Origin: a virus
DNA length: 21,369 nucleotides
Virus record (IMG/VR): IMGVR_UViG_3300042691_007497
Span: 1 to 21,369 of that record
Strand: one strand, 5' to 3'
Made by a program: the position numbers and the translations under genes. Position 1 is the first letter of the stretch, and every line of letters begins with the position of its first letter. Shown in pieces: positions 1-21,369 of the stretch. The notes under the pieces were generated by a model. That model did not search any database, had not been told where the DNA came from, and saw only the letters and a program-made list of their open reading frames with translations.

Positions 1-2539
1 TTGGGGCCGCAGCCTCAACGCTTGGGGCGACGGACGGAGCCGCTCTTTCTGTCGCGCTTGGTGCGGCCTGATCTAAAGGGCGCTGAGCGGCCACCTCCGC
101 AGCCGGTGCAGGTGTTACTTTTTGCGCTGCCGCCCGGCCTTGGCGAGTGAGATTGCTACGGCCTGTTTGACCGCCGCCGCCTTGTTCTTTGGCCTGCTTG
201 AGCCGATCTTCCCCTTTGCTTGGTACCGGTCCACTAGCTCCTGTACGTTGGCTGACACCACCTTGTTCGACTTGCCTGACTTGAGTGGCATTGGTTGGTT
301 CTCCTTTTACTGACGCGGCTACACGCTCGATCTCAGCGCGCAACCGGTTGAGCCTAGGGCTTGCTGACCGAACGCTTTCAATAAACGCGGCGGGGTCGTT
401 GTTATATTCGGTCAGGATCGCATCCTGCTGCGCTTTGGTCAGCCCGTTGAACCGGTTAATCACGGCTTGGCGTGTATTATCAGTCACCCGGTTGCGTCCC
501 GTGACAACAGCCGCGGCATCCAATGTGAGCGGTTGTTGCATGGCAGCTTGAGCCAGGGCAGCTTCGTAATCCCGCTCAGCAGCGGTCATAGCCCGTGGTT
601 GTGTAGCAGCCTGAGCCTGGGCTTGTTGGAGTTCCATCTGGCGACGAAGTGCCAACAAACGATTACCAACCTCAGTCTGACCAAGCGTAACAGGCGCAGC
701 AGTCTCCGGTACAGGGCGGCGTAGCCGCTCCATACCAGGGGTAACAAATGTCTCAGGCGCCAGGGTGGGGCGTGTCGGAAATACCTGCGGAGCAGGCATG
801 GTGGGTTGTAACCTAGCACCACGTTCAAATAGATCACGTTGACCCGCAGGCACCCCGGACACTTCGGGGATCGGTGCTTCGGGAGGTACCGCCACTTGAG
901 GCGGGGCCGGGGCGACAGGCGCCCCCGGAAACAATTCTCCCTGCGCTCCCGCAAATGGAAGCGTGAGTTGTGTGGCAACCGGACCCGGCGGTACGGCAGG
1001 CGCACTGGGAGTAAATAGGTCACCCTGTACACCCGGGGCTAACGGCGCCCTGGAGGGTGGTGCGCCAGGGAACAACTCACCCTGCCCAGTAGGAGCTTGC
1101 GGGTAGAGAATACCACCACCCACAGTCGGGGTCGAAACAGGGTATGGAGGCACACCCAAATCCTGACCCACAAATAGTTCACCCTGAGTCCCAACAGGGG
1201 CAGGTAATGCAGCACCCGGCGGCGCAGCAGGCGGAGCACCAGCATCGGTGAGAATATCACGCGGGCGAGTTTCAATGAACCGACCAGCACCGCCGAAGCC
1301 ACCGCCAAGAAGCGCACCTGCGCCTGCGGAAATCAGTATATCCTCGCCGTACTTCTCAACGATATACGGAGCTAAGGCTTTCCAATCGTTTGCGTTAAGC
1401 TGGCGGCGGAACTCTGGGTCAAACACAGCGCGCTCAACCAGTGTCTGAGTAGCTTCCGTGGCGGCTTCTTCAAGGCTGCTACGCGCAGCCGCACCACCCA
1501 CGGCACGAGCACGGGCCATACCACGAACAGCCTGCTGACCAGCTTCTTCAGCCGCTCTGGCTAAAGCTGAGGATACACCACCAACGGCACGACCCGGAGC
1601 AATCGCATCAAGTAAGGAGGTACCAAAGGCCGCACCTAGGATGGTTAGCTGTGTGCTTGTATCGTTGGTGTTATACGCGGGTTGCCCCTCTGGTGTGCGG
1701 GCGTTCTGCGCCGCTTCGTACATAGTACTAACTTGCTGTGGGAAACTCACAGCAAACGCACCGCCAATAGCCCCAATCGTGCGCGCACGTGCAAGGGTCG
1801 CAGCGGCAACACCACCAGCCGCAGCACCAGCGGGGCCACCAACAGCACCACCAATAGCCGCACCGCCAAGACCAGCGATGCCCGAGGCCACCAATGACGG
1901 CACCCCCTGAATGGCAGCATCGAGGATGTTCGAGAATGTAGAGTTGTTGCGCTGAATCAATGCAGACCGCTGCCGCTCAAACTCATCCTGACCGGAGATA
2001 GTCTCACCAGCGCGCATGATCGCGGGGCCAACTTCAGTAGCACCGGCCATCTCAGCAAGAGCACCGAAACCGCTAACTACACCTCCGGCCACACCGCGAG
2101 TGCCGGATACAAGCAACTCACCCGTACCACGGGGGCGTGATAGGCTTGAAATGTACTCCTGAAAGGCCGTCCGGCTAAGTGGTTGCCAATCGGGGACATT
2201 ACTTGGTGGGGTCGCAGCGGCTCCAAGCCTAGGTTGACTAGCTGCAAGTAGGGCTGACTGAACATCACGAGTATCAAAGGCTGTTCCACCAGCGAACATC
2301 TGTCCGGTAGATGGGCTGTAAAAAACGCCGGAGCCACCTGTAGATGCTGTCGGTGGAGGCGGCGCTGGAGGCGGCGCTAGACTAGCAATACCACTCTGAA
2401 CCTGTTGTTGCAGCCCATAAATATCCGCAGCAGAGGGACCAAGGTTCTGCAACCCGGCTCCCTGAGTCACGCTCTCGGGGCTGCGGTCAAAACCCAAAGA
2501 GGTTTCAAGGCTACCCTGTGGATAATACAGACCGCTCAT
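1..2539 (-). CDS. Giant internal virion / DNA-ejection protein, T7 gp16-like in position; C-terminus beyond the window
   Basis: The frame starts at ATG 2539 and stays open for 846 codons to the left edge, so the protein is at least 846 residues and its end is not seen. The start lies 17 bases after the previous stop, with a modest AGG before it. Residues 1-60 are Pro/Gly/Ala-rich. Three Gly/Ala-rich hydrophobic stretches lie near residues 212-265, 297-327 and 396-423 and look membrane-active. Residues 430-620 form a Pro/Ala/Gly linker with five Q-x-[ED]-L-F pentapeptides, followed by a charged, Gln-rich helical region from about 640. No lysozyme, protease or polymerase motif is visible. Its size and place after the gp13/gp14/gp15-like genes suggest the largest ejectosome subunit, which in T7 forms a channel across the envelope. 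That role is inferred from synteny and composition. Confidence 0.72.
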   Translation of the reverse strand, partial: MSGLYYPQGSLETSLGFDRSPESVTQGAGLQNLGPSAADIYGLQQQVQSGIASLAPPPAPPPPTASTGGSGVFYSPSTGQMFAGGTAFDTRDVQSALLAASQPRLGAAATPPSNVPDWQPLSRTAFQEYISSLSRPRGTGELLVSGTRGVAGGVVSGFGALAEMAGATEVGPAIMRAGETISGQDEFERQRSALIQRNNSTFSNILDAAIQGVPSLVASGIAGLGGAAIGGAVGGPAGAAAGGVAAATLARARTIGAIGGAFAVSFPQQVSTMYEAAQNARTPEGQPAYNTNDTSTQLTILGAAFGTSLLDAIAPGRAVGGVSSALARAAEEAGQQAVRGMARARAVGGAAARSSLEEAATEATQTLVERAVFDPEFRRQLNANDWKALAPYIVEKYGEDILISAGAGALLGGGFGGAGRFIETRPRDILTDAGAPPAAPPGAALPAPVGTQGELFVGQDLGVPPYPVSTPTVGGGILYPQAPTGQGELFPGAPPSRAPLAPGVQGDLFTPSAPAVPPGPVATQLTLPFAGAQGELFPGAPVAPAPPQVAVPPEAPIPEVSGVPAGQRDLFERGARLQPTMPAPQVFPTRPTLAPETFVTPGMERLRRPVPETAAPVTLGQTEVGNRLLALRRQMELQQAQAQAATQPRAMTAAERDYEAALAQAAMQQPLTLDAAAVVTGRNRVTDNTRQAVINRFNGLTKAQQDAILTEYNNDPAAFIESVRSASPRLNRLRAEIERVAASVKGEPTNATQVRQVEQGGVSQRTGASGPVPSKGEDRLKQAKEQGGGGQTGRSNLTRQGRAAAQKVTPAPAAEVAAQRPLDQAAPSATERAAPSVAPSVEAAAP
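827..1186 (-). repeat. Five repeats of a Q-x-[ED]-L-F linear motif in the giant virion protein
   Basis: In reading order the motifs are QGELF (1172-1186, residues 452-456), QGELF (1070-1084, residues 486-490), QGDLF (1013-1027, residues 505-509), QGELF (929-943, residues 533-537) and QRDLF (827-841, residues 567-571). They are 19 to 34 residues apart in a linker rich in Pro, Ala and Gly. Codons differ between copies (CAG/CAA, GAG/GAA, TTG/CTA, TTT/TTC), so the peptide appears to be kept rather than a recent DNA duplication. The pattern fits the core Qxx[LM]F of bacterial beta-clamp-binding peptides. Function is not shown. Confidence 0.85.
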
Positions 2540-2556
2540 GCAGACCTAACCCCCTA

Positions 2557-4407
2557 CTAGCGTGGCTGTTCTAGTTCAACTTCTTGATAGATAAACCTAT
2601 CAGGGATTACCCTACCATTCATATCCCGAGCTTGAACAGGGCGAAGTGCTCTAGGTGGAACAGTGTTGTTCCGATCAACAATGGCAATAGTGCCGGTCGT
2701 TGCATCAACCCTAACATCCATATTTGGATAAGCAGCCTTCGCCGCAGCTTCAGCGCGCTTAACTGCGATATCCCGCGTTGCGATAGATTGGTTCCTAAGA
2801 GATTCTTCAAGCCCGGTAACAAAGGCTTTGAATACCTCACCACTCCGTTCAGCTTGACGCTTTCTAATCTCATCTATCTGAGTACGGTAATTATTGTCGT
2901 ACATCATCCTGCCCTGGGAGATTAACTCCTCAGGTTTGATATTACTTGCACGCGGGTTGGTTTCGCCTTCACGACCCCAGATATTATAGTTTCCATCGGG
3001 GCGTTGCTCTAAACGCAGCACACCGCCTGAGGCGGTGTAGAAATCACGCGCCAAGGCGTCCGGGTTACCGGCTGCAAAATCAGCGATTGCACGCCTACCA
3101 TTGAGGTTGGCTCTATTTAACGCGATGGCCTGTGTCTGAGCTTCAATTTGAGCTGCCATGCTCAAAGCCGCAGTAGGGTTAGACCTAGCAAGCGCGATAG
3201 CCAAACGTCGTTGCCGCTCCAAGGACGCAGCTTGGGCATCCAAAGCCCGTTCCTCGTTACCAATTTGAACTGGACTTAGCACTGACAACGGAGTTGGAGC
3301 TTCACGTGTTAGCTCGGTGATACGCCTATTAACATCTTCCGTAACCTGTGCAGGAGTACGCTCACCTGGAGGTGTTACACCAGCGGGGGCGCTTGTAGTT
3401 TGGGTACGAGGGATTTCTCCTGGCGTAAGATCGGGGTAAACACCGCCAGAAGGGGTAAAATCAAGCCGCGATTGTGGTAATTGTCCAGGCTGCGGCGGTG
3501 CAACAGGCACAGCATTACGTTGAGCTTCCGTCTCCCGAAGCATTTGAGCACGTTCAAGGTATGCCCTGATGAGTGCCGGTGATTCGGAAACAGGACGCGG
3601 CTCCGGCCTCGGAACAGTGCCAACCGGAATCCCAGCATAAGGGTCGGTCATATAAGCCGGAGCAGGGGGGACCGCTGGAACCGCCGGAGGCGGTGCTACA
3701 CCATACCGTTCATTCGGAGGTAGCAACGCAGCCGGTAAGGCACCCGGAGCCGTAGGACTAGGACCAGCTTCCGTGGTGGGGTACCCAGTGTCAGGGTACA
3801 CCGTGAAATCTGGCTGAGGCATACCCGTAGGTAGGCCGGTGAAATCGTTATAGCCAGCACTGGCTAGTTGGTAGGAGCCTGGATACCGATTCAAAATGCT
3901 TGACTGTGGACCCGGCGTAGCCGCAGCAGGCGCAGGCGCAGCAGGCGCAGGCGCAGCAGGCGCAGGCGCGGAAGGCGTATATAACCATGGGGTCGCACCG
4001 GGCGGCACAGCAAGCGGCGCGGGTGCAGGCGGCTGAGAGCCGCCGGTCCTAAGATAATCTGCTACACCAGCGGCAGCGGCATTACGCGCGCCAATATCTT
4101 CTCTGAGCTGCCGTAGCCCAAGTTGAGCACGTTCAATCTCAAGTGGGGTCAGCTGAGCGTTACGCTTCAGAGCTTGTTCCGCAGCAGATAGTTGTACCGG
4201 AAACAACTGAGCAGTACGGGCTTCAGCAGCCGCACTGCGTTCGCTTTGAAGCTGACGCAATTTCATCAACTGTTCGGCTTCTTGGAGGGCTTGAGCGTTG
4301 CGCTCAATCTCCTGAGAACCTACAAAACCGCTACGGAAAGCAGCGCCAGCTTCCTGCGGCTGCCCAGCAACCGGGTACGGAGTGTATTGATAAAGCGAGC
4401 CGGACAT
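2557..4407 (-). CDS. Internal virion protein, coiled-coil and Pro-rich, T7 gp15-like in position
   Basis: This encodes a 616-residue protein. Residues about 30-112 are charged and Gln/Glu/Arg/Ala-rich and probably form long helices or a coiled coil. Residues 120-360 are a low-complexity Pro/Ala/Thr/Gly region. Residues 360-470 return to helix-rich sequence, and the last 140 residues mix helix with a short beta-like tail. I see no catalytic motif or signal peptide. The start ATG has a strong GGAGG five bases upstream. It sits between the membrane-active protein and the giant protein, the place held by gp15 in T7-like ejectosomes, so it is probably a structural ejection protein packed in the head. 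That assignment rests on order and composition. Sequence similarity to T7 gp15 is not visible by eye. Confidence 0.6.
   Translation of the reverse strand: MSGSLYQYTPYPVAGQPQEAGAAFRSGFVGSQEIERNAQALQEAEQLMKLRQLQSERSAAAEARTAQLFPVQLSAAEQALKRNAQLTPLEIERAQLGLRQLREDIGARNAAAAGVADYLRTGGSQPPAPAPLAVPPGATPWLYTPSAPAPAAPAPAAPAPAAATPGPQSSILNRYPGSYQLASAGYNDFTGLPTGMPQPDFTVYPDTGYPTTEAGPSPTAPGALPAALLPPNERYGVAPPPAVPAVPPAPAYMTDPYAGIPVGTVPRPEPRPVSESPALIRAYLERAQMLRETEAQRNAVPVAPPQPGQLPQSRLDFTPSGGVYPDLTPGEIPRTQTTSAPAGVTPPGERTPAQVTEDVNRRITELTREAPTPLSVLSPVQIGNEERALDAQAASLERQRRLAIALARSNPTAALSMAAQIEAQTQAIALNRANLNGRRAIADFAAGNPDALARDFYTASGGVLRLEQRPDGNYNIWGREGETNPRASNIKPEELISQGRMMYDNNYRTQIDEIRKRQAERSGEVFKAFVTGLEESLRNQSIATRDIAVKRAEAAAKAAYPNMDVRVDATTGTIAIVDRNNTVPPRALRPVQARDMNGRVIPDRFIYQEVELEQPR
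3926..3970 (-). repeat. Three tandem 15-bp repeats inside the Pro/Ala-rich region
   Basis: The 15-base unit gcaggcgcaggcgca is repeated at 3926-3940 and 3941-3955, and once more with one mismatch at 3956-3970. On the coding strand this gives an Ala-Pro-Ala-Pro-Ala type repeat within the disordered part of the 616-residue virion protein. Whole-codon units mean copy number can change without frameshift. Confidence 0.9.
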
Positions 4408-4428
4408 AAAACCCTCCGATACCTATGG

Positions 4429-5730
4429 TTAGGCAAACAACCCTTTGCGATTACCGCCCAAAGCACCAGCAAGACCGCCGATCCCTCTAGCTAAACCGGC
4501 TTCATACTCACGCTGCCGCCGCTCAGCATCGCGGTACGCGGGGAGTGCCATGGATGCGGCACCTGCCGGGGCAGTGGTCGGCATAGCCGATAGGCCAGCC
4601 TGAGTGGCGCCTGCGGCACGTGCATACTCAGCAGGGATAGAAGCCGCACCAATGCGGGTACCTTCAATCAAGGCCCGGCGCACATCCTCGGGGCTACGCA
4701 ACCCGGCTTCACGGATGCGGCGCTGCAACGCCAAGTTGGCCTGACCAAACGCCTGCTCAGGATTTGGGGTGCCTTGCTGCAAGAGCCGCCGTGCCTCACG
4801 AACACGAGAGTCAAATAGTTCCCGGTTGGTCCCGGCCAGAGAAGCGGTCTCATCCACGAAAGCACGCTCCTGGGCAGTCAGACCCTCGGGCGGCTTGTTA
4901 TACATCGTCATCGCCAACTGACCAACGCTGGCCAGACCGGCGGGGCTAACGATACCAGAAGCTGCGCGGCCAAGTCCCTCAGCCGTGGTGAGGTCCATCT
5001 TTGTACCACCGCCGGTAAGCCCACCGAAGAAGCGTTCAACACGAGTACCGGTCGGGGCTGCCGCCCCACCTACGCCTGTGCCTCCGGCTCCGCCCACTGG
5101 TGCACTAACTGCGCCGGTTGGTCCAGGTGCTGTGTAAGCAGGAGATGCACCAGCAGGCGGAGCCGGAGCCGAGACAGCTCCCCCAATCCCTTCCGCTGGA
5201 ATAGGAGCACCCACACCCCCAGCAGTTACACCTTCCATTCCGCCTGGGCTAATGACAACACCCGGGGTAATGGCTTCAGCAGTTCCAAAAGCAGGGCCAG
5301 TAGCCCCTTGATAGCCTGCGGCGGGACCAAATGCCTCAGCCCCTTGGTATCCGGCGGCAGTGACATTGGCAGCAGAAGTACTAGAAGGGCCAAACAAGGC
5401 ACCCCTAGCAACATCAATACCGTTACCGCCAATAAAACCGCCAACACCGCCGCCAAGGCCACCAAGCAACGCGCTAGTACCTTGGGTGCCTGTAAGCGAG
5501 CCAGCGGCCAGACCTGCGGCAGCGCCTAAACCTGCGCCTACGGCGGCAGATGTGGCAGCAAAAGTTGCTGCGCCAGTGACAGCGGCACTACCAATCATAG
5601 CGGTAGCGATAGCGGGAGCAGCAATAGGGATGGCAATAGCCGCTACGATACCGATAGCAGCAGCAAGGTTTCGGTTCCCACCAACAGCTCGGGAAATCCC
5701 CCTACCCACGTTTGATATTGCTCTACCCAT
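4429..5730 (-). CDS. Gly/Ala-rich internal virion protein, T7 gp14-like in position (putative membrane pore)
   Basis: This encodes a 433-residue protein. Residues 21-80 are almost entirely Ala/Ile/Gly/Val and could form two or more membrane helices. A second Gly-rich hydrophobic stretch lies at 84-102. Residues 140-240 are a Gly/Ala/Pro low-complexity spacer, and 280-360 are charged and helical. ATG 5730 has a perfect AGGAGG five bases upstream that overlaps the stop of the GNAT-like gene, which suggests translational coupling. A small protein with a long hydrophobic N-terminus in this position matches the role of T7 gp14, which inserts in the outer membrane during DNA ejection. Proteins of this composition are common in podovirus genomes. 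The role is inferred from context. Confidence 0.6.
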   Translation of the reverse strand: MGRAISNVGRGISRAVGGNRNLAAAIGIVAAIAIPIAAPAIATAMIGSAAVTGAATFAATSAAVGAGLGAAAGLAAGSLTGTQGTSALLGGLGGGVGGFIGGNGIDVARGALFGPSSTSAANVTAAGYQGAEAFGPAAGYQGATGPAFGTAEAITPGVVISPGGMEGVTAGGVGAPIPAEGIGGAVSAPAPPAGASPAYTAPGPTGAVSAPVGGAGGTGVGGAAAPTGTRVERFFGGLTGGGTKMDLTTAEGLGRAASGIVSPAGLASVGQLAMTMYNKPPEGLTAQERAFVDETASLAGTNRELFDSRVREARRLLQQGTPNPEQAFGQANLALQRRIREAGLRSPEDVRRALIEGTRIGAASIPAEYARAAGATQAGLSAMPTTAPAGAASMALPAYRDAERRQREYEAGLARGIGGLAGALGGNRKGLFA

Positions 5731-6931: not shown

Positions 6932-7281
6932 TATGACCCCCTGAGTTGGTTGACGAGAGTGGTAACAACAGCCCGCAAGTTAGCCACATCCTGAGCGAGC
7001 AGTTGGAAGTCACGGATTAAAGCAATATGGTCGTTCAGGGAAGCAACCTGAACATTAGAGATCGTGAACCCGCTGCCCTGAGCGGATGACCCCTGAAAGT
7101 TTGCAGCAGGGGGAGCCTTGGTTGTGATGGATGACCGCAGGATAGCAGCACTAGCCCCATCTTCTTCATTACGAATCCCGGCCAGAAGCTCAACATTCTG
7201 CTTCATCGTGTCGAGAACACGGTACTGCCACTCATCAATGTTACCCTGAGGAATATCTGGGATACCTGTAAAGCGTGGCAT
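6931..7281 (-). CDS. Small virion protein of unknown function
   Basis: This encodes a 116-residue protein that starts at ATG 7281 in a TAATG overlap with the nozzle-like gene's stop. Residues 14-40 (IDEWQYRVLDTMKQNVELL) and the last 35 residues look alpha-helical and could form a coiled coil, with a Ser/Gly/Gln-rich link between them. There is no signal peptide, membrane segment or enzyme motif. The tight coupling to the tube and ejection genes suggests a minor tail or internal component. I do not recognise a named family. Confidence 0.5.
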   Translation of the reverse strand: MPRFTGIPDIPQGNIDEWQYRVLDTMKQNVELLAGIRNEEDGASAAILRSSITTKAPPAANFQGSSAQGSGFTISNVQVASLNDHIALIRDFQLLAQDVANLRAVVTTLVNQLRGS

Positions 7282-9707
7282 TACACTGTCCTCAAACCAA
7301 TCGGGGTATCAGCAAGATACACTGCACGGACACGGATCAAGCTCTGAAGCTCTACCTCAAACGTGTCAGATTTATACCCAGCCGGAAGGCGGAATATACC
7401 ATCACTAGATTGCGTCGTGGTAAAGATCAGGTTCTTGTCAACATACAGCTTAAAGGTAACGGGGTCAGTAGCATTCCACAACTCCTCAGTGGCCTCCCAG
7501 TTTGTCTCGACATCTTCCCAATAAGAAGACCCCGGTACCCCGGTATAGTCAGCAGTAATCCGTGCCGCACCCACATTCGTGAAGTCTTTAGTGACAAAAG
7601 TCTTTGACTTCCAATACATCGTGGAGTTTGGTTGCGTCAGATCATCCCACCTATAAACGTCACCATCAACACCAGCGGCTACGTATAGGTTGTTGGTAAT
7701 TGGATCATACCATGTGGCGCTGAAGGCAAAGTCATTATCCACGAAGGTCGGTGCAGAACCCCGCGCCTCCCCAGGCTCATATACAATAGAAGCCGTAGAA
7801 TGAGACGCAATGTAGGTGTCTTTATAGGCTGTCCCCACCAGTGTGCTTGGGTCAAGCGCCGCGTTCCAGGTATCGCTACTGTGAACATACCGGGTGAACA
7901 ACTGGGCAGAAGTTGCAGGTGAGTAAAGCACAAGGCCATCATGCGTGGCATAGACAACACCAAAGCTAGTCTCAACAATGCTGCGCCGATTCAAGCAGGG
8001 GTACCTAGCCGACAAGCGCGCTTGAGACATAACAGCCGGATTCGAGCCTGAGAGAACATAGGGGTAGTTCTCCGTCAGCACCAGTAGGTTACCGCCGATC
8101 TGAGCCAGCCCAACAATGTTGCTATCAAACGTCCTGATATAAGAATCAGGCCACGCATGGAACACACCGGGTTCAGATAGATAGAGAGTGTTACCAACAA
8201 ATCCAGCTAGGATGCTGTTCTGAATAAGGGTCAAACCTTCCAGGTCACCCGGCGGCGCATCATACGTGTTGGAATCCAGAATCTCGGTTAGAGACCTGAA
8301 GTTGAAGTCATCAGTAAACGTGAAGTCACCGCCGTCGCCCCAGTACCGTGCCGTAGAAGTCGGAGGGTCTTCAGACACATCGTAATACAGATCACCAGTG
8401 GCCGCAGTAGAAGCTACGTTACCGGCAGTCTGAGCGTATTTAATCGTGTACTGGTCAACAACTTCGGTGACTATGCCGCCGGTAATGTTGAAAGAAGCTA
8501 CGCTACATCCACTGATCTTAAACCGGTCATCCTCAAACAACTGATGCGGATACGTGAACTTTACTGTCGAGACGTTGGAAGTACGCTCCACATTACTGAC
8601 AGAGTTCGGGAACCAGAGTGTCTTTAGCCGGAAGTAATCCGCATCCGTGGTGCCTGCAAGAGTGCGATAGAGGCGTATCCCTCGGACAAAATTACTGCCA
8701 GACGGCGGCACAGTCGGGAGGGTGGCAACCGTAACAATCTGACCTTCCTTGATAAACAACGCATCAGAAGGCTCAGAGCCAATCGACTCCTCCTCCCAAC
8801 CTGTGTACCAAGTATATAGATAAGACCGGGCCTGAATCTGACTACCAAGATCAATGCGACCATCTGTGTTGGCTGTAGTCGTGACGATAGGGCCGGACGA
8901 GAAATACCGGATCGTAGTTGAGTTGATAACCGTCACTTCAGCGGTGGTGTTAAGGTCACCGATATCCCAGCGCACATCGCCTGAGGTAGAGCCTGAGGCG
9001 GTATCCGCACAGGTAAAGGTATCAACACCCGTCACTGTAATCGTGTAAACATTTGATGTGGCAGTACCAGAAGTGAAACCGAGTTGAACCTCTGCACCGC
9101 TGCTTAGACCGTGTGCTGTAATTGTAACAGTAATCGTAGTCCCGCTGCGACTGTAAGTACCTGTACGGAAAGAAAACCCGGAGATGGTAACAGCAACCCC
9201 AGACTTCAGATTATGTGGCGTGCTGGTAACCAGCGTGACGTTGTTGCCTGCCGAGCGAGCAAATGAGGATGTAGATACCGTTGAGAACGCGGTAGCCGAC
9301 GCAGTTGGCTTAACCGTAGGGAGTGGCAGTCCCAACTCATAATAATTGGTCGGATACGGCGCAGCCCCCTGGGTAGCCAACTCGTATGTACTGACCTTTG
9401 GGATACCGTCACCCGTATAGTAGAACCGTTGTTCACCAAGGGTATCCGTAGCGGGCGTTACGATATCAACCACATCGTTCCAGCTAAGCCAGACAAGGGC
9501 ATCAGTGTCCGGGTCACGAAGGGCATATAGCGTACGGACAGTACCCGTACGCTGAGTATCAGCCACAATAGTAGGCTGCGGATAGGGAATAAGATCACCA
9601 GAGTATAGTTTACAGTTGCGCGCAATTTGAGCAGCCGTATCCGGCAGTAACTCCGAAGCATTTTTCGGGGCTGTACCTAGAAACTTGGTGATCTTAATCG
9701 CTGACAC
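7281..9707 (-). CDS. Large beta-rich tail protein, probable tail-tube nozzle
   Basis: I place the start at GTG 9707, giving 808 residues beginning MSAIKITKFLG. An ATG at 9737 would overlap the upstream gene by 25 bases and add residues that do not fit. The N-terminus (ITKFLGTAPKNASELLPDTA, then AQIARNCKL) is, from memory, typical of a large podovirus tail family. Residues 460-700 are beta-rich with repeated short blade-like units (for example GLAQIGGNLLVLTENYPYVL), recalling the propeller of nozzle proteins such as T7 gp12 or P22 gp10. Two inserts, about 153-275 and 376-443, contain Ig-like modules with HGL/HQL and TSG motifs. It follows the lysis cassette and begins the ejection module, which fits a tube component. 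Nozzle identity is inferred. Confidence 0.6.
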   Translation of the reverse strand: MSAIKITKFLGTAPKNASELLPDTAAQIARNCKLYSGDLIPYPQPTIVADTQRTGTVRTLYALRDPDTDALVWLSWNDVVDIVTPATDTLGEQRFYYTGDGIPKVSTYELATQGAAPYPTNYYELGLPLPTVKPTASATAFSTVSTSSFARSAGNNVTLVTSTPHNLKSGVAVTISGFSFRTGTYSRSGTTITVTITAHGLSSGAEVQLGFTSGTATSNVYTITVTGVDTFTCADTASGSTSGDVRWDIGDLNTTAEVTVINSTTIRYFSSGPIVTTTANTDGRIDLGSQIQARSYLYTWYTGWEEESIGSEPSDALFIKEGQIVTVATLPTVPPSGSNFVRGIRLYRTLAGTTDADYFRLKTLWFPNSVSNVERTSNVSTVKFTYPHQLFEDDRFKISGCSVASFNITGGIVTEVVDQYTIKYAQTAGNVASTAATGDLYYDVSEDPPTSTARYWGDGGDFTFTDDFNFRSLTEILDSNTYDAPPGDLEGLTLIQNSILAGFVGNTLYLSEPGVFHAWPDSYIRTFDSNIVGLAQIGGNLLVLTENYPYVLSGSNPAVMSQARLSARYPCLNRRSIVETSFGVVYATHDGLVLYSPATSAQLFTRYVHSSDTWNAALDPSTLVGTAYKDTYIASHSTASIVYEPGEARGSAPTFVDNDFAFSATWYDPITNNLYVAAGVDGDVYRWDDLTQPNSTMYWKSKTFVTKDFTNVGAARITADYTGVPGSSYWEDVETNWEATEELWNATDPVTFKLYVDKNLIFTTTQSSDGIFRLPAGYKSDTFEVELQSLIRVRAVYLADTPIGLRTV

Positions 9708-9712
9708 TGGGA

Positions 9713-9868
9713 TTACTTCTTTGCTTTCGCCAAGCACTTACCAGCAGCACGGCATTTGCCCGGAGTCGGGCAGCCGGGGCAAGGCTTAAAGCCACCCACC
9801 ATACCACCCTTCTTGTAGCTGGCCATACCCATTTTGGCCTTACCGGCCATAGGCTTACCCTTCATCAT
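9713..9868 (-). CDS. 51-residue basic four-cysteine protein (possible zinc knuckle)
   Basis: This is a very short gene starting at ATG 9868, which overlaps the endolysin stop by four bases (ATGA). GGAG lies seven bases upstream; ATG 9865 is a second possible start at ten bases. The protein is rich in Lys, Gly and Met, with C30, C33, C39 and C45 in the order CPGC, five residues, C, five residues, C. This spacing could bind a metal. Such Lys-rich CxxC minis recur in marine phage genomes. The function is unknown; a nucleic-acid or virion role would suit the charge. The stop is five bases before the proposed GTG of the nozzle-like gene, which suggests coupling. Confidence 0.7.
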   Translation of the reverse strand: MMKGKPMAGKAKMGMASYKKGGMVGGFKPCPGCPTPGKCRAAGKCLAKAKK

Positions 9869-10386
9869 GACTTATCTCCTACAAGCTTAAGGGCTTCAGA
9901 TTCGACTTCTTCGACACGGCGAAGCCATCCCTTGCCGAATGTAGCATAGATCGGGAGAGCTTTGTAGAAAGCCCTGCGCTCGTCCGAAAACTTTTTCACT
10001 AGCTCAGCCGGGTCCTCTGCGTTTGTCAGTGCAAGCGTTTTTGGCCCAATAGCACCATCTGGTGTGGCCCCCACAGCTATCTGAAGCAGTTTCGCCGCCC
10101 GGCCTGGACCCCCGTTTACCGCCATATCAAACACTACCAGATCGACCCCGGCAGCGAGGTCATCGCACCTAGCCTTATCCCAATAGCGCGTCTTATACAG
10201 ATTCAGCAGGTGTTCCTGGGGAATATTCCGCAGTTCTTCCTTACTCACATCCCGACCCAGATACTCCCTATAAACAGCCAGGGTCACGCCCTTCATAGTC
10301 GCGCCGCCGGGATCATCCCTGTGGTCTGACCAACCTCCCTCGTGATGCAACACCATCTGTAGGGCCTGGGGGAAGTTATCTCTCAT
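9865..10386 (-). CDS. Endolysin: GH108 N-acetylmuramidase with C-terminal PG_binding_3 domain
   Basis: This is a 173-residue peptidoglycan-degrading enzyme. The N-terminal domain (about 8-90) carries the GH108 signature HHEGGWSDHRDDPGG with catalytic Glu16, followed by TMKGVT. The C-terminal part (about 93-168) has GPGRAAKLLQIAVG, DGAIGPKTL and a GKGWLRRV end typical of PG_binding_3. The length matches the family (about 170-190). No signal peptide is present, so it should need the holin to reach the wall. It starts in a four-base ATGA overlap with the holin gene. A Gram-negative host is consistent with this class. The family assignment is firm. Confidence 0.93.
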   Translation of the reverse strand: MRDNFPQALQMVLHHEGGWSDHRDDPGGATMKGVTLAVYREYLGRDVSKEELRNIPQEHLLNLYKTRYWDKARCDDLAAGVDLVVFDMAVNGGPGRAAKLLQIAVGATPDGAIGPKTLALTNAEDPAELVKKFSDERRAFYKALPIYATFGKGWLRRVEEVESEALKLVGDKS

Positions 10387-10901
10387 TTACGTGCCATCCT
10401 ATTCATCGCTTCGGTCTTCTCTTTGGACCCGGCGGATGAACCGAAGTAATAGGCAACCACGCCGCCCCAGGCGGTCCCCAGAGTGCCAAGCATGACCAGC
10501 ATAGCCTCAGACCCACCGTGCGTAGGAAGACCGTTTTTGAGCATGTAGAACAGCACCCCAAAATACCCGGCTGTGATTAAGCCAGCCAAGATACGCGGTG
10601 TCCAATCTTTTGTGTCAACCTCACGCTTACGCGCGCTGTCCCGATCAGCATTAGCAATGCGCTCTAGGTCAATATCCAATTCCCGCATCTTGATGGCGAA
10701 GTCTTGCTCGGCCTGCTTCAGCGCGAGCAGTTGTTCTGGGGTAGCCTTGGCCGCAGCTTCAGCAAGTTCCTGTTCAGTACCATCTGGTTTACCAAGCAGA
10801 GCATCCGAAATGGCACGAGTAGCCATACCCGCCAAAGGGCCGCCAACAGCACTCGCAATGGATGGCGCAACAGTACGGACAAGGTTCAGAAGCTGATCCA
10901 T
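10383..10901 (-). CDS. Holin of the GTA_holin_3TM type
   Basis: This encodes a 172-residue protein. It has an N-terminal amphipathic hydrophobic stretch (about 9-30), a long charged helical middle (40-100), two clear membrane segments (about 103-122 and 131-153), and a Lys-rich cytoplasmic tail. The order NADRDSARKREV, DWTPRILAGLITAGYF and AWGGVVAYYFGSSAGSK is characteristic of the 3TM holin family known from gene transfer agents and phages. It forms the membrane lesions that let the adjacent endolysin through and sets lysis time. GGAG lies seven bases before the ATG, and the stop overlaps the endolysin start. Confidence 0.85.
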   Translation of the reverse strand: MDQLLNLVRTVAPSIASAVGGPLAGMATRAISDALLGKPDGTEQELAEAAAKATPEQLLALKQAEQDFAIKMRELDIDLERIANADRDSARKREVDTKDWTPRILAGLITAGYFGVLFYMLKNGLPTHGGSEAMLVMLGTLGTAWGGVVAYYFGSSAGSKEKTEAMNRMARK

Positions 10902-10902
10902 C

Positions 10903-11367
10903 CTATCTCTCCAGCATGAAGCTAAGATTTGGGTGCCGTGGGTAGGTTACAGTTCGTTCACCTTCAGGACATTTATACTTAATGGTAGCTAACAAGGTTG
11001 CACGACCAGGAGCGATGGTTTCCTTGTCTGAGATATCCAGCAAGTAGGTAAAAGTGTCGATCTCAGGGCCTGCGGGACCGGTAAACCGGGTCATACTTGG
11101 GGTAGCAGGGTGGATAACACCAGTGCCGTCGCGCACCGTCACCTCGAAACCCTCAACGGAGCAGTCATCACGCTTCTTGACCCTGGCTACCGTCACGGTC
11201 ACTGGCTGCCCGATCTTGGCATCGACAATTCTGAAATGCTCAGGAGACCAAGCAATAATTTCATTCTTGAACCACCCAAACTTCTCACCAGCCGTATAAC
11301 CGCCAACAGCCAGCGCAAAGCTGGCCGTGAGGAATTGAACGACAGGGGTAAGTTTAGGTAGCTCCAT
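10903..11367 (-). CDS. Membrane-anchored 154-residue protein in the lysis cassette
   Basis: One N-terminal hydrophobic segment (about residues 8-25, VVQFLTASFALAVGGYTAG) precedes a beta-rich domain of about 110 residues, so the bulk probably faces the periplasm. There is no lipobox and no long coiled coil, so it does not look like a classical Rz/Rz1 spanin. Two or three cysteines (in DDCSVEG and YKCPEG) could form a disulfide. It lies two bases after the small membrane protein and two before the holin, which suggests an accessory lysis role such as holin control, superinfection exclusion or a unimolecular spanin substitute. I do not recognise a named family. Confidence 0.6.
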   Translation of the reverse strand: MELPKLTPVVQFLTASFALAVGGYTAGEKFGWFKNEIIAWSPEHFRIVDAKIGQPVTVTVARVKKRDDCSVEGFEVTVRDGTGVIHPATPSMTRFTGPAGPEIDTFTYLLDISDKETIAPGRATLLATIKYKCPEGERTVTYPRHPNLSFMLER

Positions 11368-11369
11368 GG

Positions 11370-11537
11370 CTAATGCAACTTAAAGGCGATACCGGCTAGG
11401 CCGGTGATAATAGCACCTGCCGCAACCATAAGGATTGTCTCAAGCCGCTTTAGCCGCGCATTGATGGCCTCATAGCGCAACTGACACACAGCCTCATGTG
11501 AGTTTAAGCGAGCTTCAGTTTCGCTAATCTGGACCAT
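11370..11537 (-). CDS. 55-residue membrane protein, XhlA/holin-like
   Basis: This short gene starts at ATG 11537, with a GGGGG tract about seven bases upstream. A soluble helical N-terminus (SETEARLNSHEAVCQLRYEA, then INARLKRLE) is followed by one hydrophobic segment at about residues 34-52 (TILMVAAGAIITGLAGIAF) and a short basic end. The N-terminal coiled-coil helix plus single C-terminal membrane helix is the layout of XhlA-type hemolysin/holin accessory proteins. It is the first gene of the lysis cassette, two bases before the membrane-anchored protein. It may be a second holin or antiholin for the 3TM holin. Confidence 0.72.
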   Translation of the reverse strand: MVQISETEARLNSHEAVCQLRYEAINARLKRLETILMVAAGAIITGLAGIAFKLH

Positions 11538-11540
11538 TAC

Positions 11541-11867
11541 TTACCCCCAAGGCAGCGGCGGCGTCACGACAGGCGGGTTCACCTGATTGGTGATTTGTTC
11601 ATCCAGATTCGCAGCCAGTTGCGCGCACTGATCAAAACCGAGGGCACCCTGCACCCAGCCAATGACTTGATCCTGCGTCAAGTCAGCATACGGCGTGAAC
11701 GGGGAGCCCGGCGTGTAGGTCAAACCCACAGTGCCGTACACAGTGGCGTTGTATGTGCCATCGGTGGCGTTCTGGCGCCAATGCACGGTGATCACCACAT
11801 CGGTCTGGCCGTCTTCTTGAGGCACGCAATCCATTGCCTCAATGACCCAGGTGTAGGCGTTAGCCAT
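11541..11867 (-). CDS. Small conserved phage protein (DUF7936-like)
   Basis: I start it at ATG 11867, giving 108 residues beginning MANAYTWVIEAMDC. An upstream in-frame ATG at 11876 overlaps the only Shine-Dalgarno (GAGGA), so it cannot use it. From memory, the sequence is typical of a family common in phages: N-terminal TWVIEAMDC, VHWRQNATDGTY in the middle, and a PPVVTPPLPWG end. The fold should be mostly beta for the first 55 residues, then helical. The family recurs near tail-fibre and lysis genes, but its function is unknown. The start overlaps the previous stop by eight bases. Confidence 0.75.
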   Translation of the reverse strand: MANAYTWVIEAMDCVPQEDGQTDVVITVHWRQNATDGTYNATVYGTVGLTYTPGSPFTPYADLTQDQVIGWVQGALGFDQCAQLAANLDEQITNQVNPPVVTPPLPWG

Positions 11868-12012
11868 TTTCTGCATCCTCTTGCTTCGCGGCCAATTGCG
11901 GCTGCACCTGTTCGCGGATTTTCAATACAAGCTCAAACACACTGGCGTATGGCAAATTCCCAAGAGCCTGCAGGATTGCATTGATTTCGTTGATGCTTAG
12001 TTCAATCTTCAC
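11860..12012 (-). CDS. 50-residue conserved phage protein of unknown function
   Basis: This uses GTG 12012, one base after the cupin stop, and ends in TAA at 11860, overlapping the next gene by eight bases. The product begins MKIELSINEINAILQALGNL and continues PYASVFELVLKIREQVQPQL. It is two amphipathic helices with a short acidic tail. From memory, very similar minis (NAILQALGNLPY, followed by a helix ending in QPQL) occur in many phages beside tail-fibre genes. There is no catalytic or membrane feature. It may be a chaperone or oligomerising structural mini-protein. Confidence 0.7.
   Translation of the reverse strand: MKIELSINEINAILQALGNLPYASVFELVLKIREQVQPQLAAKQEDAENG
11876..11880 (-). promoter_or_regulatory. 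Ribosome binding site that decides the start of the DUF7936-like gene
   Basis: GAGGA on the minus strand lies eight bases before ATG 11867. The alternative ATG at 11874-11876 overlaps it. The site lies inside the 3' end of the previous gene. Confidence 0.7.
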
Positions 12013-12013
12013 T

Positions 12014-12283
12014 TTATTTCCCCTTTACAATGTTAACGATGCGCGAGTTATCCTCAAGCGCAACAAATTCATGCGGGTCATGCGGCTTCCAATCGGCAAT
12101 ATCGCCCGCCGTCAAAACCCGCTCCCAGCCATTACCATGGGCCTTGAAGCTGCCTCTTGCAACCACAGTAATATGCACATCGCCCTCGCTATGCTGGTGC
12201 ATGGGCAGCACATCGCCACTCACCGGAAAGTCGTATGCGGTTCCGGTCAATTGCCCAAAGGTGAATGGCTTGGCTTGCAACAT
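12014..12283 (-). CDS. Small single-domain cupin
   Basis: This encodes an 89-residue protein. Motif 1 is GDVLPMHQHSEGDVHITVVA followed by RG; H29 and H31 are the HxH pair, and H37 lies about where the usual Glu falls. Motif 2 is GDIADWKPHDPHEF with H71 as the last ligand. Two to four His could hold a metal, so this is a minimal metal cupin, or a fold used for binding only. The substrate cannot be read from the sequence. It starts in a one-base TGATG overlap after the gene behind the tail fibre, so it belongs to the tail operon. It could modify a host surface sugar, protect against host metabolites or be a virion decoration. Confidence 0.75.
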   Translation of the reverse strand: MLQAKPFTFGQLTGTAYDFPVSGDVLPMHQHSEGDVHITVVARGSFKAHGNGWERVLTAGDIADWKPHDPHEFVALEDNSRIVNIVKGK

Positions 12284-12582
12284 CAGATTACCGTGGGGCC
12301 TTCTGATGGTTCGGCAGGCACTTCAGGCTCAGGAGGCAGAGGGGGATTGGGATCAACAGGCGCACCGTCAACCCAAGCCCAGCCAATGTCCATCGGCCCA
12401 TCCCACTGATGCAATTCGCAGCCTTCAGGCGGCGTGTATGGCGTGACGCCATCCCAATCAATGATATTCACAATCACGCCGTTCTGCACCATCGCGTAAT
12501 TCATGACTTTTTTCTCCGCAAGAAACTTGATCAATTCCTCTGGTGATGGAGCGCCAGAAGGTGCAAGCATTGAGAGCAGCAT
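12283..12582 (-). CDS. Small protein following the tail fibre, possible fibre chaperone
   Basis: This encodes a 99-residue protein that starts at ATG 12582 in a TAATG overlap with the fibre stop. Another ATG at 12570 is possible. Residues 13-25 are helical. Residues 27-75 (MNYAMVQNGVIVNIIDWDG, then a TPPEG turn and DIGWAWVDG) form a compact beta domain of a type often found in small phage proteins beside fibres. The last 25 residues are Pro/Glu-rich and disordered. A similar layout is seen in some tail-fibre assembly proteins. The position is suggestive, but no chaperone family is certain. Confidence 0.55.
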   Translation of the reverse strand: MLLSMLAPSGAPSPEELIKFLAEKKVMNYAMVQNGVIVNIIDWDGVTPYTPPEGCELHQWDGPMDIGWAWVDGAPVDPNPPLPPEPEVPAEPSEGPTVI

Positions 12583-14756
12583 TAGCTGTACTCATACACG
12601 ATGATGTAGCCAGCGCCACCAGCACCACCAGCACGGGTTCCAGTACCAGCCGTACCACCAGCACCAATAGTCACTGTTTCAGTAGAGCCAACAGTAGTCG
12701 TGTATTTGATGCAAGTTTCACCTTGGCCGCCGCCACCGCCAGCGTAAGCGCCTTCATTACAAACACTTCCATCAGTATCCGCGCCGCCTGAACCACCACC
12801 GCCACGAACACCCGCGTTACCAGCAGAGTTGTTTCTTACGCCAGCGCCGCCGCCTTCACCGCCCGCGCTACCGCCAAGTGAGCCAATATTTGCGCCGACT
12901 GCGAAAGTAAAGCTCCCGCCGCCACCCTGGCCTTTAATTGCAATAGTTGCCCCTGTTCCGCCAGTACCTCCAGCACCGCCCGTTGTCCCGGTAGAGCCAG
13001 TACCGCCAAGTGCAGTTACATGGGAACCAAATGAGGTGGTGCCGCCATTGCCGCCGTTACCGCCCGCAGTTTTTCCCGTAGCCCCCTTACCACCACCACC
13101 GCCACCAACAGCCACCACAACCGCCGTGGTAACGCCGCTGGTGCGCGTGTAGGTGCCGGATGAGGTAAATACCTGCACGTTCTTGAGAGCGCCTGTGCCA
13201 CCACCACCCGCAGCCTGCCACGAAGGCGCAGCGGCAGAACCATTGGAGGTCAATACCTGACCCGAGGTGCCGTAGTTTGCGCCGTTAATACCAAGCTGGC
13301 CTAATGGACCAACGCGGAAGCGTTCAGTAGCGGCAGTGTAAAGCAATACAGCCCCACCAGTTCCGCCCAACTGCCCCAAAGAAAGAACGAAGTTATTTGA
13401 AACGCTAAAAACACGCCCACTATCGGCAGAAGAAACATCAACATACATCCCAACGCTTGCGTTCGTTGGATTATTAAGGCGTAACTCTCCCCCTTCACCA
13501 CCTACTGCGCGACCCGTGATTGCGCCATTAACATCAAGCGTTGAACCCGGAGAACTCGTCCCAATCCCCACGTTGCCGCTGCTGTCAATGCGCATCGACT
13601 CAACACCGCCCTCTGTAAAGGCAATCGTGTCAGCGGCAGGGAAGAAAATACCAGTGTTGGTGTCGCCCGTTGTGCTGAGTGCCGGAGCAGCAGCAGTGCC
13701 AGCGCCAAGCTGGACCTGACCAGCAAAGTAATTGGCGGCAGTACCGCCAGCGTAGAAGCCCCAAGTTGTGCCGCCACCTGTTGCTGTATTTACTGCGGAA
13801 TAAAACCCGTAAGCTGTCTTGCCAGCCGTAATGGCAGCGGTGTTTTCTGCTATAAACCCAGTGTTAGTGGTGGCGCCTATCAGCGAAGCATCAGCACGAT
13901 AACCATTTTGAATGGCTACAGTGCCTGTAAAAGTGCTTTGTTGTGCCTGAAAGCCATTAATGGCTCCGTACGTTCCAGCAGCACAAGCAGCAGCGGAGAG
14001 GAAATAATCTGCTCTGGAGGTGACGCCAGATTGCACTTGGCCATCAGACACAATACCTGCGGAAAAAGTGCTACCCGTAATATTACGAGTTACACGCAGA
14101 GTGTTTTGTGCTTGAGATACAGCGCCAACGCCAACACTTCCTTCATTACTAATCCGCATCCGCTCAGTCGGGCTGGAAGCGCCATCAGCCGTGGTGCTAA
14201 ATATCAAACGCCCAGGCATATCGTTGGTGCCGGGGGTGCCGTCAACGGCGGCAGTGATGCGAGCAGCTTCAATAAAAGCAGAGCCGCCATCACCCCAGAA
14301 GCGATAAGCACCAACCTCATCGCCTGATGACACAATTGACCACGATCCAATCGTGGTCGAACGCGACTTCATTGTGTTGTAAGCTGGACCACTAGACGCT
14401 GCGTTATAGCGTCCGTTCTGCATAAAACCGATAGAACCAAGCTGAGTATATTCGGCACTGGTCGCAGGAAGCCCAGCAAAAGTTGCCGTATAACCGTTGA
14501 TTACCTTGCCACTAGCATCCACCACAAACGGCGTAGCATCAGGATTAGCACTATCCTCAACCACCAGCGCATTGCCTGCGCCTGTTTGGGTGATGCGGAG
14601 GGCGTCAGATGCGGAGTTGACAGAAACAACTGTCGGCCCCGAGAGAGTACCCCCTGAGGTCTCAAGTTTATCGCTGTTCAGATTCGTAAAGTTGGTATCT
14701 ACCTCAGTGTTAGTGAGGGGAGACCCTTTACCTGCGCGGGTAACAATAGTGGTCAT
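12582..14756 (-). CDS. Tail fibre with polyglycine-rich receptor-binding tip
   Basis: This is a 724-residue protein. Residues 1-40 (TRAGKGSPLTNTEVDTNF) match, from memory, the virion-attachment N-terminus of many marine phage fibres. Two shaft signatures of the MRI-x-x-x-G-x-V-G type lie at 200-222 and 388-409, the latter being MRIDSSGNVGIGTSSP. A beta segment at 525-550 leads into a Gly-rich C-terminus (550-720) with many GGxGG runs and two Cys (666, 682), ending in YIIVYEYS. Gly-rich tips of this kind form polyglycine-II bundles in S16-type adhesins and carry the host-range loops. It starts 10 bases after the previous stop with GAGG upstream. A trimeric receptor-binding fibre is the likely role. 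Confidence 0.82.
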   Translation of the reverse strand: MTTIVTRAGKGSPLTNTEVDTNFTNLNSDKLETSGGTLSGPTVVSVNSASDALRITQTGAGNALVVEDSANPDATPFVVDASGKVINGYTATFAGLPATSAEYTQLGSIGFMQNGRYNAASSGPAYNTMKSRSTTIGSWSIVSSGDEVGAYRFWGDGGSAFIEAARITAAVDGTPGTNDMPGRLIFSTTADGASSPTERMRISNEGSVGVGAVSQAQNTLRVTRNITGSTFSAGIVSDGQVQSGVTSRADYFLSAAACAAGTYGAINGFQAQQSTFTGTVAIQNGYRADASLIGATTNTGFIAENTAAITAGKTAYGFYSAVNTATGGGTTWGFYAGGTAANYFAGQVQLGAGTAAAPALSTTGDTNTGIFFPAADTIAFTEGGVESMRIDSSGNVGIGTSSPGSTLDVNGAITGRAVGGEGGELRLNNPTNASVGMYVDVSSADSGRVFSVSNNFVLSLGQLGGTGGAVLLYTAATERFRVGPLGQLGINGANYGTSGQVLTSNGSAAAPSWQAAGGGGTGALKNVQVFTSSGTYTRTSGVTTAVVVAVGGGGGGKGATGKTAGGNGGNGGTTSFGSHVTALGGTGSTGTTGGAGGTGGTGATIAIKGQGGGGSFTFAVGANIGSLGGSAGGEGGGAGVRNNSAGNAGVRGGGGSGGADTDGSVCNEGAYAGGGGGQGETCIKYTTTVGSTETVTIGAGGTAGTGTRAGGAGGAGYIIVYEYS

Positions 14757-20569: not shown

Positions 20570-21369
20570 TTAGGCGAAGGTCACAACGGCCTGGGACAAG
20601 GCTTCAGGCTTCACAACCTTATAGCCATAGACCTGGAGGCCACGGATGATGTTACCGAAGGTCGTTTCGGAGCGGATCGTTTCCATCTCAGTCATCTGAG
20701 AAGCAAACGTCAGACCCATCTTCGTACCAGCGATGATGTTGTACTTCCCGCCAGTATCAACCTTCAGGTTGTGGCTGACATACAGCGTGAAGCGATCCAC
20801 CATACCAAGGCGACCATTGCGGATCACGGAAACACCGTCACCAACGAGAGAAGCATCCTTCAGCTCGGACTTCTTGATCAGACCGGCCATGCGGGCCGGA
20901 ATTACCAGGAAGCGACCAGCTTCAGGGCAGTTAGCTTCATCAAGCACGGTGCCCATATCCACAATCAGATCGAGCACGGAAGCAGTGCCACCAGCGCCAT
21001 CCTTAGACACAGACAGCGGAGAAGCGGTCGTGCCGAGGTTGAACGCGGAAGACACCGCACCAGCGGTGGCGCCCTTGTTACCAGACGCAATATCCGGCAG
21101 CATGTCGGTCAGAACGCGCTGGTCGATCTTGATCTTCATCTGTTCAGAAGCATCCTTGGACCACAGGTCCATCAGCTTCACATCAGACTGAACGCGATCA
21201 ATATCATCCTCAACGCAAGCGAAGTATTCGCCCTTGTCGATAACCAACTGGAGCTTCGGCTTGTCGGGGTTTTCCACGACAAGGTTTTGCCCCTTGACGT
21301 AATCGCGGATCGTGATGTTCGGGGTCGTACGGATATTCACCGTATCACCCTGATTACGAATCTCGCCTT
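20570..21369 (-). CDS. Major capsid protein, HK97-fold, N-terminus beyond the window
   Basis: The frame is open from the right edge for 266 codons. An in-frame GTG at 21340 is internal, because GEIRNQGDTV precedes it without a stop. GDTVNIRTTPNITIRDYVKG near the edge is, from memory, a common segment of phage major capsid proteins, followed by a helical spine (about residues 60-90, VKLMDLWSKDASEQMKIKI). Later come RFLVIPARMAGLIK, the GMVDRFTLYVSHNL turn and a C-terminus with FGNIIRGLQVYGYKVVKPEA. It should be the main shell subunit, with scaffold, portal and terminase genes probably beyond the right edge. Confidence 0.85.
   Translation of the reverse strand, partial: GEIRNQGDTVNIRTTPNITIRDYVKGQNLVVENPDKPKLQLVIDKGEYFACVEDDIDRVQSDVKLMDLWSKDASEQMKIKIDQRVLTDMLPDIASGNKGATAGAVSSAFNLGTTASPLSVSKDGAGGTASVLDLIVDMGTVLDEANCPEAGRFLVIPARMAGLIKKSELKDASLVGDGVSVIRNGRLGMVDRFTLYVSHNLKVDTGGKYNIIAGTKMGLTFASQMTEMETIRSETTFGNIIRGLQVYGYKVVKPEALSQAVVTFA

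Follow-up and report, generated by a model that had tools for sequence, protein, structure and literature searches.

The disordered linker of a giant protein from a podovirus-like phage carries an array of short peptides that match the motif for binding the bacterial sliding clamp, DnaN. We consider it rather probable that the array is a multivalent DnaN ligand on a virion-delivered polyvalent protein that would tether or disturb the host replisome, with binding, ejection, topology and consequence all being inferred. The window, that is the whole stretch of DNA analysed, is a viral record of 21,369 bp and represents part of the phage structural module, encoded on the minus strand. This module contains the genes for the major head protein (PHROG 267), head and tail proteins, an endolysin, an internal virion protein (PHROG 511) and several unknowns in addition to the giant ORF (Table 1). 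The complete homologue of the giant protein in L005 has 2643 aa, and the part within the window had no match in Pfam or PHROG.

Table 1. Positions of the giant gene, its parts, the clamp-like sites and the neighbouring genes in the window
Feature	Position	Strand	Remarks
Giant protein gene	2..2539	-	846 aa in window; ORF exits record at left edge
Giant N-terminal part, residues 1-401	1337..2539	-	Mostly helical in low-confidence model; Gly/Ala-rich hydrophobic segments
Giant linker, residues 402-621	677..1336	-	Pro/Ala/Gly-rich, predicted disordered; contains all six motifs
QGELF, residue 452	1172..1186	-	Giant linker
QGELF, residue 486	1070..1084	-	Giant linker
QGDLF, residue 505	1013..1027	-	Giant linker
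QLTLPF, residue 524	953..970	-	Sixth site; fits hexameric clamp motif
QGELF, residue 533	929..943	-	Giant linker
QRDLF, residue 567	827..841	-	Giant linker
Giant helical block, residues 623-745	305..673	-	After linker; AlphaFold2 pLDDT mostly 65-91
616-aa gene directly upstream of giant gene	2557..4407	-	Probable second ejection protein, by position
433-aa gene, third of same run	4429..5730	-	Ala/Gly-rich; probable ejection protein, by position
Internal virion protein gene (PHROG 511)	7281..9737	-	Puts giant gene within structural module
Major head protein gene (PHROG 267)	20570..21367	-	Upstream end of structural module holding giant gene

An earlier note on this DNA had described five pentapeptides in the Pro/Ala/Gly linker of the giant protein, 19-34 residues apart and encoded by differing codons, and all of this was confirmed on the minus strand, including their coordinates, with measured spacings of 34, 19, 28 and 34 residues. 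A sixth site, QLTLPF, had been overlooked and is the best fit to the hexameric clamp motif among the sites of the window. The linker stretch of 150 residues (441-590) holds five matches to Q..[LM]F, a count that 100,000 shuffles did not reach, their maximum being three. Of the seven Phe residues in the linker, six lie inside clamp-like motifs. As a clamp motif demands, the sites have Gln in position 1, Leu or Met in position 4 and Phe or Leu in position 5 or 6; position 2 is aliphatic in QLTLPF and Gly or Arg in all five pentapeptides. The location is accessible and disordered according to the AlphaFold2 model, which supports the previously claimed linker disorder in that residues 420-602 lack predicted secondary structure (pLDDT about 32). 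The model was built from 16 sequences with a mean pLDDT of 47 and is usable only for the contrast between linker and helical block; because it is this shallow, a low pLDDT in other N-terminal regions cannot be taken as a sign of disorder. Membrane insertion of residues 1-401 is possible, by inference.

The N-terminal part was used first as the query and the conserved C-terminal part second, which yielded about 80 homologues, 31-100% identical in the C-terminal part; they comprise near-identical, 85%, 57% and more distant relatives, the last reaching down to about 30% identity. Their linkers diverge almost completely, yet the same peptides recur. The linker of L005 is rearranged and its peptides are QSDMF, QYEMF and QGDLF; more distant relatives have QLDLF, QLGLF, QLPLF, QLSLF, QISMF, QVEMF, QLELPF, QLELPL and QLNLPL, and the family maximum of seven sites is found in L166. 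All array-bearing homologues are from metagenomic contigs, no named phage isolate carrying the array was found, and a bacterial genome scan for relatives or a host gave two weak matches only. In L095 the giant gene is seemingly split into two ORFs (2317-5061 and 8702-14674), separated by about 3.6 kb and two further ORFs, and the first ORF has the array QGQLF, QQDLF, QQDLF, QLPLF and QLPMF. In the motif-free L044 a long EQFGPP/EQFGPF repeat occupies the corresponding place of the linker. In the near-identical virus L002 (14461-15261) the giant ORF stops early at 14510 and coding continues in another frame, a change for which a real frameshift and a sequencing error are indistinguishable.

Enrichment was quantified in linkers taken from residue 400 to the zincin-like domain of 74 homologues, dereplicated to 46 groups with less than 25% shared 5-mers, and compared with 400 shuffles of the linkers in blocks of 50 residues. 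Q..[LM]F was observed 51 times against 4.7 expected (approximately 11-fold; shuffle maximum 14), and the clamp-motif reading of the earlier note, which a lack of QxxLF enrichment in homologues was to refute, has accordingly survived. Q..[LM]P[LF] was observed 23 times against 2.0 expected. Five re-ordered versions of the pentapeptide gave only 0-3 occurrences against about 4.7 expected, and Q..[IV]F gave two against 4.8. When each residue was tried, only Q was clearly enriched in position 1, only L and M in position 4 (M 18 against 0.8 expected) and not I or V, and the enriched ending was either F in position 5 or P followed by L or F in positions 5-6. L is commonest in position 2, ahead of G, I, S, M and V, and about half of the 51 pentapeptides have an aliphatic residue there (L 17, I 4, M 3, V 3); position 3 is E, P, D or S. 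Homologues fetched later and held out, with at most 16% of 5-mers in common with the first set, contained 13 Q..[LM]F against 0.81 expected and none of the re-ordered versions. The array could in principle be a by-product of a low-complexity Pro/Ala/Gly/Gln composition or of recent repeat duplication, as the compositional repetitiveness and the common flanks (ELFPGAP) of some copies would suggest. This explanation, like mere chance, can hardly be upheld, being contradicted by the shuffles of local composition and the re-ordered controls, by the differing codons of each copy, by the convergence of unrelated linkers and by the held-out homologues. Recent tandem duplication in particular was rejected, as the copies differ in both codons and flanks.

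The enrichment is confined to the linker, and the rest of the giant protein is depleted, with 3 motifs against 13.5 expected in the C-terminal part and 0 against 3.4 in the first 400 residues. The other ORFs of the same loci showed a twofold excess of Q..[LM]F (39 against 19.8 expected), to which conserved primase sites that recur contributed in part, and Q..[LM]P[LF] was absent from them. Among 23 representatives of distant polyvalent giants there was no enrichment (8 against 13.5 expected), and the polyvalent proteins of the isolates DC1, H66, K249, SopranoGao and Y11 had no motif, for which reasons the array was rejected as a general property of polyvalent giants. Approximately 18 of the 46 linker clusters are without a strict motif, so that the function is dispensable in some lineages.

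Natural clamp motifs follow Q-aliphatic-x-[L/M]-[F/L] or Q-aliphatic-x-[L/M]-x-[F/L], with only Leu and Met in position 4 (PMC11139829). The Pol II peptide is QLGLF and the strongest peptide listed is QLDLF (PMC11139829), and both of these, together with the consensus QLSLF, occur identically in the phage family. The clamp-motif interpretation of the earlier note holds at the level of sequence, where penta- and hexameric forms coexist and the independently derived position preferences coincide with the canonical beta-clamp-binding motif; clamp binding by the array is strongly supported as a prediction, with no binding measured. Gly in position 2 was also correctly called suboptimal, since it lowers the affinity in peptide studies, although less than loss of the Gln does (PMC11139829). 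The five pentapeptides of the window would bind weakly and accompany a single canonical hexamer, a setting in which having several sites makes sense. How several clamp motifs act when present in a single partner is not understood, according to a review of the clamp (PMC11139829).

Host clamp binders (Pol II QLGLF, Pol III alpha QADMF and QVELEF, Pol V QLNLF, and Hda) have the penta- and hexameric consensus and the restriction to Leu or Met in position 4 in common with the phage family, and some of the peptides are identical. Those described have one or two motifs and are fused to polymerases, repair or regulatory factors, whereas the phage giant has up to seven motifs in a disordered linker of a probable virion protein. 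Because clamp binding is deduced from the peptides' letters only, the motifs might still bind a different receptor of host or phage, one whose pocket resembles that of the clamp or whose consensus is similar by coincidence. We regard this as improbable, given that the two forms of the motif and the L/M-only position 4 all coincide with the clamp motif, and to our knowledge there is no other bacterial receptor with this consensus pair.

With DnaN as the preferred receptor, the clamp concerned is likely that of the host, itself unidentified, since a PolA-type polymerase was present and no phage-encoded clamp was detected in 10 of 10 relatives. A phage clamp as the target was rejected, none having been found. 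The array might instead bind the clamp for the benefit of phage DNA synthesis or repair, by loading the genome, as it enters, with Pol III, ligase, MutS or the clamp of the host. The binding step is then the same as in the preferred explanation and only the purpose differs. Polymerases and ligase are indeed among the clamp partners (PMC11139829), and a role in jump-starting replication has been suggested for polyvalent proteins (PMC5512222). With a PolA-type polymerase and no detected clamp of their own, however, these phages do not obviously need clamp-dependent DNA synthesis, and this purpose is considered a minor possibility, tethering or interference being the favoured inference.

An alignment of 12 homologues from one group showed the columns of two motifs to be better kept than the flanking linker, in agreement with the suggestion of the earlier note that the peptides themselves are conserved. 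The Q is invariant or nearly so and the F is kept or once replaced by I, whereas the flanks are only about 0.47-0.49 identical; position 2 interchanges L, I, V and M, and position 3 P, D, S, E and A. Between relatives the number, type and position of the motifs vary, and a quick tree indicated about 12 gains or losses, which is somewhat overcounted. This tree of presence and absence is approximate because the absences in L086, L089 and L034 may reflect truncated or mis-bounded linkers. The C-terminal part of the window phage, as seen in the near-identical L016 and L002, is closest to that of the motif-free L017, but the window linker is 99% identical to the linker of L012, and the linker therefore appears to have been exchanged as a module.

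These comparisons also bear on the alternative that the peptides are a virion-assembly motif docking the giant on another internal virion protein. The giant gene is located at the end of the structural module, after genes of probable ejection proteins, and among the proteins of that module only one has the motif, both of which would suit a role in assembly. The earlier note regarded this possibility as equally open, a view weakened by the close sister lineage L017 and L014, which lacks any motif. The virion proteins of motif-free L017 are 79, 70, 64 and 61% similar to those of the window, against 79, 72, 62 and 60% for the motif-bearing L018. Equally similar virion proteins without the motif argue against an obligatory assembly contact and make an assembly role less likely. 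The variation in number, type and position of motifs and the detailed match of residue preferences to the host receptor speak against it as well, and we find an assembly motif about as improbable as another receptor.

In the neighbouring 616-aa protein a conserved PQSRLDF, situated in a divergent Pro-rich linker, fits a loose hexameric clamp motif and was seen in the homologues L014, L016 and L018, the version of L014 being PQSNLDF. An unexplained LF[G/S/A] forms the C-terminus in many homologues of the 433-aa protein (for instance QQKSLFS and GNRKGLFA).

The giant family terminates in the PLxRFG domain NF032893, for which the homologue P0007 scored 141.5 bits against a cutoff of 100; the window ends before this domain. 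After the linker follows a zincin-like domain with a conserved HExxGH, corresponding to the HEXXXH form reported for the metallopeptidases of polyvalent proteins (PMC5512222). The model of the zincin-like region resembles polyvalent proteins in BFVD, but no relative and no solved peptidase was matched among solved structures. The PLxRFG/DarB-like polyvalent proteins (NF032893; Iyer et al. 2017, PMC5512222) have in common with the family the PLxRFG C-terminus, the giant size, a putative zincin-like domain with an HEXXXH-type motif and the location after structural genes, and differ in that relatives outside the motif clade show no motif enrichment. The zincin-like domain of all 46 representatives is closed by GR[FY], mostly with S or A as the next residue, 80-190 residues past HExxGH (e.g. 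L018 and L016). A G[RK]FS-like sequence sometimes precedes the domain, and GR[FY] may mark a site of processing or a junction.

Packaging and ejection of the window protein are likely by analogy and have not been shown. A PLxRFG protein, gp60 of phage H66, is annotated as verified in the virion by mass spectrometry. The earlier note had suggested that the giant might enter the cell like T7 gp16, and a relationship to gp16 was not borne out by sequence: P0001, P0007 and P0009 gave no Pfam match and no gp16-type PHROG family, and neither gp16 homology nor a transglycosylase domain was present in them by Pfam and PHROG. Gp16 and other podovirus ejection proteins (PMC8954989) are comparable, being giant internal proteins believed to pass through the inner membrane along with the DNA, exposing a cytoplasmic part. 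No sequence relationship between these and the phage giant was found, and the passages located in the review mention no sliding-clamp contact.

The proposed course of events begins with a giant polyvalent protein that would be packaged in the virion and delivered together with the DNA. Its N-terminal part would probably be associated with the inner membrane, and the flexible linker would display one to seven penta- or hexameric clamp motifs to the cytoplasm. Single sites are presumed weak, many having Gly in position 2, and avidity could then capture clamps near the site of DNA entry. The incoming genome, the attached putative metallopeptidase and the C-terminal domains would thereby be held at the host replisome, where the array may compete with host polymerases and other clamp users. 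Such interference is plausible in that over-expression of a clamp-motif peptide inhibits growth of E. coli (PMC11139829). The ejected copies are probably, by inference, too few to titrate all clamps of the host.

Clamp motifs in host enzymes and transposases were already known, as were polyvalent proteins as delivered effectors. Transposases also exemplify a mobile element using the host clamp through a recurrently arising Q-L-x-L-F, usually with just one motif, at the C-terminus of a DNA-processing enzyme produced inside the cell, and without any virion array (PMC4549789). Gp168 of the staphylococcal phage Twort is likewise a phage protein acting on DnaN, as an inhibitor of the host clamp, but it binds the DNA channel and blocks loading and is not an array of short motifs (PMC11139829). 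The polyvalent-protein paper does not mention clamps (PMC5512222), and in the open PMC subset no report was found of a phage virion protein with an array for clamp binding, or of clamp motifs and polyvalent proteins joined.

Whether this podovirus-like clade has evolved a probable virion-borne, membrane-proximal and multivalent clamp ligand that docks the genome and a putative metallopeptidase onto the replisome at entry is, in our judgement, evenly balanced. The literature searched described no such strategy in any phage. If DnaN is bound, the replisome would be contacted by proteins accompanying the genome, ahead of any phage gene expression, and the array would represent both a natural clamp ligand based on avidity and a new point of attack on host replication.
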